From positions 1 to 64,000 of the forward strand of contig JAILNS010000025.1 in NCBI GenBank assembly GCA_024691305.1: a DNA stretch of 64,000 nucleotides, read 5' to 3'. Positions 41,236 through 46,414 of the stretch are shown one piece after another. The first letter of the stretch is position 1. Each line of letters opens with the position of its first letter. A program made the translations under genes and the position numbers. The DNA comes from Lachnospiraceae bacterium (lineage in GTDB: Bacteria > Bacillota > Clostridia > Lachnospirales > Lachnospiraceae). Under the pieces are notes generated by a model. That model saw only the letters and a list, made by a program, of their open reading frames with translations, was not told where the DNA came from and did no database searches.

Positions 41236-41406
41236 TCATTCTTCTGCAATAGCGCCTACAGGGCACTGTCCTGCACATGCTCCACAAGAAATGCACTTCT
41301 CGGGATCGATCTCAAACTTACCGTCACCCATGCTTATAGCGCCTACAGGGCACTGAGCTTCACATGCACCACATGCAACACAAGCATCACCTATTACAAA
41401 TGCCAT
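41236..41406 (-). CDS. Clostridial-type 2[4Fe-4S] ferredoxin (56 aa, below track length cutoff)
   Basis: MAFVIGDACVACGACEAQCPVGAISMGDGKFEIDPEKCISCGACAGQCPVGAIAEE; two CxxCxxCxxxCP motifs. Confidence 0.95.
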   Translation of the reverse strand: MAFVIGDACVACGACEAQCPVGAISMGDGKFEIDPEKCISCGACAGQCPVGAIAEE

Positions 41407-41513: not shown

Positions 41514-42314
41514 CTAACCTTCTGCAGTTGAATCAAGCATGACAGAATCGTCATGAGGTATGTTAAGTTCCGCTCTTCTGTCCTTGATGCCCTGAAGTAT
41601 GACCTTTTTCTTCTCGATCAGTTCCTTCTGACCCATTGCAGGTGTATCGGCCAGTTTATATTCCATTCCAAGCTTCTCATACTTTGCCTTGCCCATTGTG
41701 TGATAAGGAAGGGCGTCCAGTGCTTTAAGGTTATGGAACTGTCCGATGAAATATCCGAGCTTATACAGATACTCATCTTCATCGGTAAGGCCGGGAACTA
41801 TAACGTGTCTGATCCACATATCCACATTTTTGTCGCTTAAATACTTTACAAAAGCAAGTATGCCTTCGTTGGGCTGACTCGTAAGGGCCTTATGTTTCTC
41901 TGGATCGATATGCTTGATATCAAGCATCACCAGATCGGTAAGTTCCATAAGTTTATCAAGTTTCTCAACAAGCGGCTTATTGTCAGGATTAAATGCTATT
42001 CCCGATGTATCTATGTCTGTGTGGATACCATGCTCTTTTGCCAGAGTAAACAGGTCTATAAGAAAATCGATCTGCATGAGGGGCTCTCCGCCTGTAACGG
42101 TAATGCCTCCGTTGGTATAAAACGGACGGTTCCTCTCATAGTTGTCAATGATCTCCTGCGGCTCCATAAGCGTTCCGTCTGTCATGGGCCATGTATCAGG
42201 ATTATGACAATACAGGCATCTCATGGGGCAGCCCTGAACAAAAACGACATATCTGACTCCGGGGCCGTCTACAGTTCCGAAACTCTCAAGAGAATGTATT
42301 TTTCCTTTGGTCAT
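41514..42314 (-). CDS. pflA: Pyruvate formate-lyase activating enzyme (radical SAM)
   Basis: FVQGCPMRCLYCHNPDTW; GGITVTGGEPLMQ. Confidence 0.95.
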   Translation of the reverse strand: MTKGKIHSLESFGTVDGPGVRYVVFVQGCPMRCLYCHNPDTWPMTDGTLMEPQEIIDNYERNRPFYTNGGITVTGGEPLMQIDFLIDLFTLAKEHGIHTDIDTSGIAFNPDNKPLVEKLDKLMELTDLVMLDIKHIDPEKHKALTSQPNEGILAFVKYLSDKNVDMWIRHVIVPGLTDEDEYLYKLGYFIGQFHNLKALDALPYHTMGKAKYEKLGMEYKLADTPAMGQKELIEKKKVILQGIKDRRAELNIPHDDSVMLDSTAEG

Positions 42315-42374: not shown

Positions 42375-42617
42375 TTAAATGCTCTCGTGGAATGTACGGC
42401 TGATAACGTCTGCCTGCTGTTCGGGAGTCAGCTTTATGAAGTTAACTGCATAACCCGAAACGCGGATAGTCAGCTGAGGATAGTTCTCGGGATGCTTCTG
42501 AGCATCTAACAGTGTCTCTCTGTTAAGAACATTTACGTTTAAATGATGGCCGCCTTTTACAGCATATCCATCAAGTAATGAAACCAGGTTATCTACCTGT
42601 GTAGCACTTGCTGCCAT
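42375..42617 (-). CDS. Stand-alone PFL glycyl-radical domain
   Basis: [30 protein letters not shown]...[35 protein letters not shown]; own ggaggt RBS. Confidence 0.92.
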
Positions 42618-42658: not shown

Positions 42659-42859
42659 TCAATGAAAATCGTCGAGGCCGTCCTGAAGTGTGGGAACCGA
42701 GCAGGCCAGGGGTGTACGGGAACAATCCGTACAACCCATGGTCTCAACATTCTTAAATCCTTCAACTTCGTCGCTGACATCAACATTTACATGACCGACT
42801 CCACCGGCCATACCGGCATCCAGCATCTTTACAAGATCATCAATCTGTTTTCCATCCAT
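42659..42859 (-). CDS. Small Cys-rich protein related to the N-terminal half of the glycyl-radical domain
   Basis: MDGKQIDDLVKMLDAGMAGGVGHVNVDVSDEVEGFKNVETMGCTDCSRTPLACSVPTLQDGLDDFH; gggagg RBS before ATG at 42859. Confidence 0.75.
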   Translation of the reverse strand: MDGKQIDDLVKMLDAGMAGGVGHVNVDVSDEVEGFKNVETMGCTDCSRTPLACSVPTLQDGLDDFH

Positions 42860-42899
42860 GTTTATGTCCTCCCGACTCATGGTCTCTCAAATGATCACA

Positions 42900-44936
42900 T
42901 TAGTTAAGATCTACGTTAATGTCGCCTGCGAATACCTTGTCTTCTTTACCAAGTGCTCCGGGGATGATTGAGAAGGTATTTGAAATACCATCCTGTGCAT
43001 ACTGGAACGGAAGCTTGGATACGGATGACAGTGAAGCAACAGCACCGTGAGAATCACGTCCGTGCATCGGGTTAGCACCGGGTGCGAAAGGCTGTCCTTT
43101 CTTACGTCCGTCAGGTGTGTTACCTGTAGCCTTACCATAAGTAACGTTAGATGTGATGGTAAGAACTGACATTGTCGGGAATCCGTCTCTGTATGTATGA
43201 TGTCTTCTAAGCATTACCATGAAGGTCTTAACAAGATCTCTTGCGATAACGTCAACACGATCATCATCATTACCATATTTAGGGAACTCACCGGTAGTCT
43301 CGAAGTCAACGATGATACCGTCTTCATCACGTACAACCTTAACCTGTGCATACTTGATAGCTGAAAGAGAATCGGCAACAACCGAAAGTCCTGCGATACC
43401 TGTAGCGAAGTAACGAAGTACGTCTCTGTCATGAAGAGCCATCTGAGCTCTCTCATAGCAATACTTGTCATGCATGTAGTGAATGATGTTCAGAGTATTT
43501 ACATATACATCTGCAAGCCATTCCATCATGTCTGTGAACTTAGCCATAACATCATCGTAGTCAAGGATATCACCCTCAACAGGACGATACTTAGGACCAA
43601 CCTGCTTGTGTGATACTTCATCAACACCACCGTTTAATGCGTAAAGCAGGCACTTAGCAAGGTTAGCACGAGCTCCGAAGAACTGCATCTGCTTACCGAT
43701 TACCATTGAAGATACGCAGCAAGCGATACCGTAATCATCACCGTGTGTAACTCTCATCAGGTCATCATTCTCATACTGGATAGAAGATGTTGTGATGGAG
43801 ATCTTAGCGCAATATTTCTTCCATGCTTCGGGAAGTCTTGTTGACCAAAGAACGGTCAGGTTAGGCTCAGGTGAAGCACCAAGGTTCTCAAGAGTATGCA
43901 GGAATCTGAAGCTCATCTTGGTAACCATGTGACGTCCGTCGATACCTACGCCACCAAGTGACTCGGTAACCCAAACGGGATCGCCGGCAAATATCTGATT
44001 GTACTCAGGAGTACGAGCGAATTTAACGCAACGCAACTTCATGATGAAGTGGTCAACGAATTCCTGGATCTGCTCCTCAGTAAATGTACCGTTCTTAAGG
44101 TCGCGCTGTGCATAGATGTCAAGGAATGTAGAAGTACGTCCAAGTGACATTGCAGCACCGTTCTGCTCCTTAACTGCTGAAAGATATCCGAAGTATGTAG
44201 CCTGGATAGCTTCCTGTACGTTCTGAGCGGGACGAGCGATATCGCAGCCATAAGAAGCTGCCATTTCCTTCATCATCTTAAGAGCAACGATCTGCTCTGA
44301 GATCTCTTCACGAAGACGGATAACATCATCTGTCATAACACGTCCTGTAGAAGCCTTCTGCTCTTCCTTATCCTCGATAAGTCTGTCGATACCGTAAAGA
44401 GCGATACGACGATAGTCGCCGATGATACGTCCACGACCGTATGCATCCGGAAGACCGGTGATAACGTGTGATGAACGGCAAGCTCTCATCTCAGGATTGT
44501 AAGCATCGAAGCAACCAGCGTTATGTGTTTTGCGGTGTACTGAGAAGAACTCTGATATCTCAGGATCTACTTCATAACCGTTGTCTGCGCAAGCCTTCTC
44601 TGCCATACGGATACCACCGTAAGGCTGAAGTGAACGCTTAAAAGGCTTATCTGTCTGGAAACCTACGATAGTCTCCTTGCTCTTGTCAAGATAGCCGGGG
44701 CCGTGTGATGTGATAGTAGATACAACCTTGGTATCCATATCAAGTACGCCGCCTGCCTCACGCTCCTGCTTCTGCAGATCAAGAACCTGATCCCACAGAT
44801 CTTTGGTGTTCTGGGTAGGGCCTGCAAGGAAGGACTCATCTCCGTCATAGGGAGTGTAGTTCTTCTGGATGAAATCACGTACGTTGATCTCGTGATCCCA
44901 TTTGCCGCCTACGAATTCATTCCATTCTGGTCTCAT
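42900..44936 (-). CDS. pflB: Pyruvate formate-lyase catalytic subunit lacking the C-terminal glycyl-radical domain
   Basis: GIACCVSSM active-site Cys pair; ends ...[19 protein letters not shown]-stop. Start MRPEWNEF at 44936. Confidence 0.93.
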
Positions 44937-45156
44937 GTAAATGCCTCCTATAAAATATTTTTTGACTATTTGATCTCTATGCGTAACTGCAAAAGAGAAA
45001 TTGGTCTCGTACCATTGATTATATGTAATCCATACAAAACATTCAAGGCAGATTGCCCCAACTTTATGCACTTTTTAGAGTACACTTGCGCATTTTATCA
45101 TTAAAGTATATAATCCTGTCGAAACATGATTCATTTTGTACGGGGAGATATACAAT

Positions 45157-45423
45157 ATGTTCGGATTTAATAAAGATAAAAAAGAAAATCATAGTGAAGA
45201 AAAAAAGGAGACCGCAATGACTGAGATCACCAAAGATATGACCATAGGAGAGATCCTTCAGACAGCACCCAATGTAGCACCGTTACTCATGGGCGTAGGA
45301 ATGCACTGTTTAGGATGCCCCGCTTCACAGGGAGAAAGCCTTGAAGAAGCAGCCATGGTTCATGGTATCGACATAGATGAGCTTATGCAGTACCTGGATG
45401 AAAAAAAGGATATGTGGGCATAA
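45157..45423 (+). CDS. DUF1858-domain protein
   Basis: [45 protein letters not shown]; gggaga RBS before ATG at 45157. Confidence 0.85.
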
Positions 45424-45477: not shown

Positions 45478-46197
45478 TCAGATCCCGGAAAGTTTCTGTA
45501 TTCCGTTACCGCTGATGATCACTTCACAATGCTCCTCGAGATACGCCTGTGTCGCGAGGACATTTTTTTCGCTCTCACCAAATTCCGACGTGATATTGCA
45601 TATACGGTTAAATGACATGATATCCATATCATCCTGGGAAATAAGAAGAAGATATCTTCCGGTCCTTACATCCTTATATACGGAATTGGTAGCGTCATAT
45701 TCCGAGCGGATCACATGAGCCAGAGAAATAAGTTCATCCATGGACTCAAACGAAAATGACCTTACGAGATTTACGGTCTCTTCAGTGTTAGGGAATGGTA
45801 TCTCTTTATTCTTAAATGCATTGAATATACTCTCGGGGTCTTCCGTTATCTCCGAGAACAAAGACATGGCATCGTCTTCATCATCTTCGTCATATTTATC
45901 TTCGATAAGATCGGGCGCAAATCTGGCAAACCTGGTATCAAGTTCTTCAGGATCTTCAACCTTGGTCACGGTCAGCACGATGCACTCTGAGTTGATCGGA
46001 GTCGCCTCTATCATAAGAGGATCGTCTCCGGCGTCAAAGTCGAGTTCGTCGGCTGCCTTTAACATCATGTCCTTAAAGAGCATGCGTGCCTTGTCTGTGC
46101 CGTACGCAAGCTCACTTATCTTGATGCTTCTGGCCTTTAAATCTTCACTTGTTATCGTGCAGCGGATCTGCTGCTCATTCATTCTTTCTAATTTCAT
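45478..46197 (-). CDS. mecA: MecA-family adaptor protein
   Basis: MKLERMNEQQIRCTITSEDLKARSIKISELAYGTDKARMLFKDMM. Confidence 0.85.
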   Translation of the reverse strand: MKLERMNEQQIRCTITSEDLKARSIKISELAYGTDKARMLFKDMMLKAADELDFDAGDDPLMIEATPINSECIVLTVTKVEDPEELDTRFARFAPDLIEDKYDEDDEDDAMSLFSEITEDPESIFNAFKNKEIPFPNTEETVNLVRSFSFESMDELISLAHVIRSEYDATNSVYKDVRTGRYLLLISQDDMDIMSFNRICNITSEFGESEKNVLATQAYLEEHCEVIISGNGIQKLSGI

Positions 46198-46414
46198 ACA
46201 TATATTTATATCCGCGAGCAGCATTTTCGTCAAGTAAACTGTGAGTTTATTTAAGATTTTTTTATAAACTTCCTCTATTTTTAATTTTACCCGAATACGG
46301 GTATTTTTCATTGACTTAAATCTACCTTATCCTTTATCATATTTATATACATATGCTTGTTTGTATTTATACTGTTTTAATGCTTATAAGAAATTTCTTG
46401 TACAAGGGGTTCGT

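Follow-up and report, generated by a model that had tools for sequence, protein, structure and literature searches.

The gene at 42659-42859 (minus strand) of the window, by which we mean the whole 64,000-nucleotide stretch analysed here, lies in an operon for a split pyruvate formate-lyase (PFL), and sequence comparison supports the view that its product, hereafter the third protein, descends from a glycyl radical domain (GRD) and is specifically associated with PFL. We propose, with a probability of about 0.5, that it is a dedicated accessory subunit of the split enzyme, whose GRD-like half docks on the core and whose thiol-bearing tail is thereby placed near the radical site. PFL holds a central place in the fermentation of gut anaerobes and is a textbook glycyl radical enzyme; in hundreds of species, most of them Lachnospiraceae, it is made as a core, a GRD and a third protein.

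A small gene between the two parts of a split PFL

The PFL core (42900-44936, minus strand; start MRPEW, end DINVDLN) scores 1099 bits with the PFL equivalog model, aligning to its positions 2-665 of 744, and a stand-alone GRD carrying RVSGYAVNF (42375-42617, minus strand) separately matches the GrcA3 model (NF038360) with 160 bits, the cut-off being 158; PFL is therefore encoded by two genes in this window. Neither a Cys tail nor a glycyl-radical loop is present at the end of the window's core. The third-protein gene is located between the core and the GRD genes, and the GRD gene is followed by the gene for the radical SAM PFL-activating enzyme (PflA; 41514-42314, minus strand; PF04055, PF13353), with a 2[4Fe-4S] ferredoxin gene (41236-41406, minus strand) 3' of the activase gene. 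A ferredoxin behind the activase is also seen in several relatives (L007, L010, L018). Upstream of the operon lies a gene for a MecA-family ClpC adaptor (45478-46311, minus strand), and ORFs similar to it by sequence occur near PFL in L055 and L067; a DUF1858 protein with a CxxC-type motif, a possible redox partner, is encoded divergently from the operon (45136-45423, plus strand).

The longest ORF at the third-protein site spans 42659-42880 (minus strand) and encodes 73 aa. The conserved start of the protein is, however, the internal ATG at 42859, which gives a product of 66 aa (MDGKQIDDLVKMLDAGMAGGVGHVNVDVSDEVEGFKNVETMGCTDCSRTPLACSVPTLQDGLDDFH) and is preceded, 8 nt upstream, by the Shine-Dalgarno sequence GGGAGG (42868-42873, minus strand); an SD-like motif was found in 72/80 homologues. 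The gene is thus supported by its ORF, its homologues, its own ribosome-binding site and purifying selection, and the bounds, the separate RBS and the position between the two PFL pieces, all proposed in a preliminary description of this DNA, were found to be correct. The gene was found in 16/61 relatives. Within the window's genus its synonymous sites differ by 39-50% and its non-synonymous sites by 2-5%, giving a pN/pS of ~0.05-0.12, which indicates strong purifying selection.

By homology, residues 4-28 (KQIDDLVKMLDAGMAGGVGHVNVDV; 42776-42850, minus strand) in the 66-aa protein, to which we attribute a docking role, correspond to the helix and the first strand in the GRD. The GrcA3 model matches residues 10-36 of the 73-aa ORF with an E value of 0.0019 and 18.2 bits (cut-off 158), and positions 1-35 of a third-protein profile match stand-alone GRDs and the C-termini of full-length PFLs in many genomes, at ~1e-6 to 1e-3. 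When the third protein was compared with the GRD by hhalign, a probability of 95.5% and an E value of 1.4e-8 were obtained over 34 columns, indicating that its N-terminal helix and strand share an ancestor with those of the GRD. The likeness to the adjacent radical domain, previously aligned by eye, is therefore confirmed, and so is the replacement of the Gly-radical half: the fingerprint RVSGYAVxF is absent in all third-protein homologues seen, and a conserved di-Cys tail is found in its place. Neither Pfam nor, at scores above cut-off, NCBIfam has a family that covers the third protein, in agreement with the earlier impression that it falls outside described families, and no PDB chain matches it at E values up to 1.

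The Cys tail (VETMGCTDCSRTPLACSVPTLQDGLDDFH; 42662-42748, minus strand) was delimited by alignment of homologues, in which a variable linker precedes the consensus C-x(3-6)-A-C-x-[VI]-P-T-[LIM], often followed by G-x-D. The motif had been described as containing three Cys, of which C46 (42722-42724) and C53 (42701-42703) are broadly conserved, whereas C43 (42731-42733; 66-aa numbering, all on the minus strand) is variable and often another residue. The homologues L019 and L020 end directly after the first Cys pair, GCTDCAK or GCTTCSQ, and lack the AC-x-VPTL part, yet they are encoded within a split-PFL operon. A resemblance between ACSVPT of the tail and ACCVSS of the PFL active-site loop was considered as mimicry, which we do not claim, since the likeness is post hoc and has been lost from core tails of the kind ACNIPN.

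Distribution of the third protein and of Cys tails on the core

Full-length third proteins were counted by profile search in a sample of 294 genomes of the order. The protein was found in 54 of them. All 54 belong to the 73 that have a stand-alone GRD, whereas 0/221 genomes without such a domain have it; outside the order it is rare. A profile scan of GTDB contigs retrieved about 477 relatives, and at the best 80 of these loci a core precedes the gene in 79 and a GRD is present in 78, the misses lying on short contigs. The commonest gene order is core, third protein, GRD, activase. Homologues occurring mostly without PFL would have spoken against a role in PFL function; instead, a stand-alone GRD accompanies the third protein in 54/54 genomes of the order sample. 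The statement that the gene is always beside a split PFL holds for 79 of the best 80 loci as regards the core, but is too strong: in G008, G278, G298 and G321, the last three of one genus, the gene lies elsewhere on the chromosome with a split PFL in the same genome, and in G012 (67% complete) the gene is present and no PFL was found. Relocated third-protein genes in genus g84 (L071, L073, L075) stand upstream of genes for a YitT-like membrane protein and for proline synthesis. The window's genome also carries a second stand-alone GRD far from any PFL core (G000 C33:140161-140391; L079), as do five relatives (L080, L083, L084, L085, L086), these being spare copies of the radical part.

A stand-alone GRD without a separate third-protein gene occurs in 19 genomes of the order sample. 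The core could be read in 18 of these, and in 17/18 it ends in a Cys motif of its own, for example DRIEECGNQACNIPNIMESIDNE, DLECGVDSACAIPNLMVAVDDWK, EPDCACCEPNIDLQ and NDDCLCCEPNIEIPEE. Cys tails were also seen on split cores in other families of the class (DLDCSNGACSTPTLFEGLDNDEE, DLDCDNGACSSPTLFEGLDTDEK, FDCASGACISPTLLQGLDTD, ENCQGGACSTPTLHKGIDEA and others), which form an independent set that was not picked for this trait; its members were collected through their similarity to a PFL fragment, so that it is a non-random sample. A core tail with at least two Cys is present in 26/30 split-PFL genomes without the gene versus 0/61 with it (Fisher p 7e-19, calculated over genomes that are related to one another), and no such tail was seen in six further cores, read by eye, from genomes with the third-protein gene. 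A profile built from the third-protein tail alone finds core tails in 9/16 cases, with E values of 1e-7 to 2e-3 (Z 1000), and in 11/16 the real core tail beats all 200 shuffles. Core tails of the CCEPN and CC types and the linker of G319 show no significant similarity to the third-protein tail, and so the CCEPN and CC types have only the presence of Cys in common with it.

Nearly every split PFL thus has a Cys tail, either on the third protein or at the end of the core, and since the tail is usual on the core when the third protein is absent, it appears to be a necessary, hitherto undescribed component of the split enzyme. The need is not absolute, as four split-PFL genomes, G193 (L068), G888 (L258), G535 (L259) and G808 (L260; 82% complete), have neither the gene nor a Cys tail.

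In a FastTree phylogeny of the cores, the split PFLs form one group with a support of 100, which also contains two separate re-fusions, G319 on the one hand and G229 with G149 and G272 on the other. Separate gene and core tail are exchanged six times on the best tree; counting strongly supported branches, there are only three independent switch pairs, all in the expected direction, which is too few for significance. The re-fused, full-length PFL of G319 (L216) has TCGCEEVTC between core and GRD and ends in HCCM, and the lineage of G229, G149 and G272 has an ordinary short core-GRD junction with no Cys. Judging from these sequences, evolution seems to have retained the Cys tail rather than the GRD-like half, which fits a docking carrier that is needed if the tail is a separate protein and not needed if the tail is part of the core.

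Proposed role of the third protein and alternative explanations

In E. coli, the spare-part protein YfiD stands in for the oxygen-cleaved GRD of PFL, and it cannot bind the cleaved enzyme without residues 696-733 of the latter, which include strand b10 (PMC8683613). The N-terminal half of the third protein is a copy of the start of the segment that matches these residues. We therefore hypothesize that this half docks on the core where the first helix and strand of the GRD would lie, which would bring the Cys tail to the mouth of the radical barrel. There the two thiols would act on the enzyme, most probably guarding it by taking up or quenching a glycyl or thiyl radical, or else by reversibly covering the active-site Cys pair, during periods in which the GRD is absent, is undergoing activation or has suffered oxygen damage. 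With the tail fused to the core, a docking half would be superfluous and could be dispensed with. For two conserved thiols close to such a radical, quenching or cover of the active-site Cys pair appears the likeliest chemistry, the main alternative to a thiol guard being a metal site shared across the dimer. AlphaFold2 models of the stop-read-through chains of L128 (core with third protein, and the same with the GRD; 72-82 rows) had pLDDT values of 45.7 and 47.3 and a pTM of 0.46 and were discarded. More tentatively, the splitting of PFL may itself have created the need for such a guard, the di-Cys tail controlling or quenching the radical at an exposed barrel, in cis from the core or in trans by means of a GRD-derived carrier.

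The preliminary description had also suggested a place-holder for the empty radical site. Such a plug would fill the GRD groove of an empty core with its GRD-like half and keep the core folded and closed until displaced by a fresh GRD, its Cys merely stabilising it or forming a mixed disulfide with the active-site Cys pair. The homology of the N-terminal half to the GRD docking segment (hhalign) agrees with this, as does the finding that the matching E. coli segment is a recognition element for the spare part (PMC8683613), and additional GRD copies at other sites in several genomes point to an exchange of GRDs. We nevertheless consider the plug unlikely: where the gene has been lost, what persists is a Cys tail, carried by the core, and not the GRD-like half, and G319 has Cys between core and GRD in one chain, which suggests that evolution kept the tail rather than the plug. 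As the tail occurs on cores that take up a GRD, and Cys lie between core and GRD in G319, exclusion of the GRD cannot be the whole function. Among the roles suggested earlier, namely assembly factor, plug and thiol- or metal-based regulator, a plug purely excluding the GRD is thus disfavoured, and a thiol function beside the GRD site is favoured. A holder that pairs with the free GRD through the GRD-like strand, prevents its activation away from the enzyme and delivers it to the core would explain why the two genes adjoin, and would suit the observations that free YfiD is a poor activase substrate and that its first strand has been proposed as a safety lever (PMC8683613); we regard it as improbable, because in genomes without the gene the tail is on the core and was never seen on the GRD, and because the GRDs have no Cys partner.

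A metal or Fe-S accessory subunit, which would tune thiyl radical formation or serve as an electron sink, has precedents in the small Cys-rich subunits of benzylsuccinate synthase (BSS) and 4-hydroxyphenylacetate decarboxylase (HPAD), and the authors reporting on these state that others may be unidentified (PMC12590467). The 2[4Fe-4S] ferredoxin gene behind the operon would be in keeping with it. The third protein has, however, two broadly conserved Cys versus the four required for a cluster of its own, and this, together with the lack of a PDB match at E values up to 1, makes the Fe-S subunit unlikely. A partial GRD copy next to a GRD might finally be taken for a decaying, functionless duplicate, for which loss of the Cys motif would be expected. 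This explanation is refuted: C46 and C53 are conserved, the tail is conserved across families, the pN/pS of ~0.05-0.12 indicates purifying selection, and the gene has its own RBS and is kept even when relocated. If the more tentative reading of a thiol guard made necessary by the splitting of PFL is right, no accessory control subunit of PFL was known before this one, and glycyl radical enzymes would have a further, novel mode of control. The tail offers a short set of mutable residues for asking how a split radical enzyme stays oxygen-safe.

Comparison with known systems

Our literature search found no description of split PFL, of GrcA3 or of the third protein. Among solved structures, PDB entries 38la and 38lb (Formate acetyltransferase, 2026) are the nearest to the PFL core of the window. 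A GRD query matched neither chain; 38lb extends about 44 residues past the aligned core, and in the class sample no genome near-identical to it was found, the best reaching 74%.

Of the known small proteins that serve PFL, YfiD (GrcA; TIGR04365; PMC8683613) is similar in being derived from a GRD and in that the same PFL segment is involved; it differs in bearing the glycine and becoming the radical part, which the third protein cannot do. With GrcA3 (NF038360), whose gene adjoins its own, the third protein shares homology over its N-terminal 27-34 residues, but it lacks the RVSGYAVNF loop, scores 18.2 bits against a cut-off of 158 and has a Cys tail instead. PFL is regarded as a single-chain homodimer, and further accessory subunits of glycyl radical enzymes may be undiscovered (PMC12590467), a question to which the third protein would be a partial answer. 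BSS and HPAD have small [4Fe-4S] accessory subunits (PMC12590467), and the BSS beta and gamma and HPAD gamma subunits are, like the third protein, small Cys-containing proteins encoded beside their enzyme; theirs carry [4Fe-4S] clusters in a HiPIP-like fold, whereas the third protein has two conserved Cys and a GRD-derived half. Its two broadly conserved Cys fall short of the four ligands of a [4Fe-4S] cluster, and no PDB chain, including the solved BSS and HPAD small subunits, is related to it by sequence at E values up to 1. On present evidence, the third protein therefore lacks the features that define these subunits and lies outside the GrcA3 definition, and appears to resemble the accessory subunits of BSS and HPAD in spirit.
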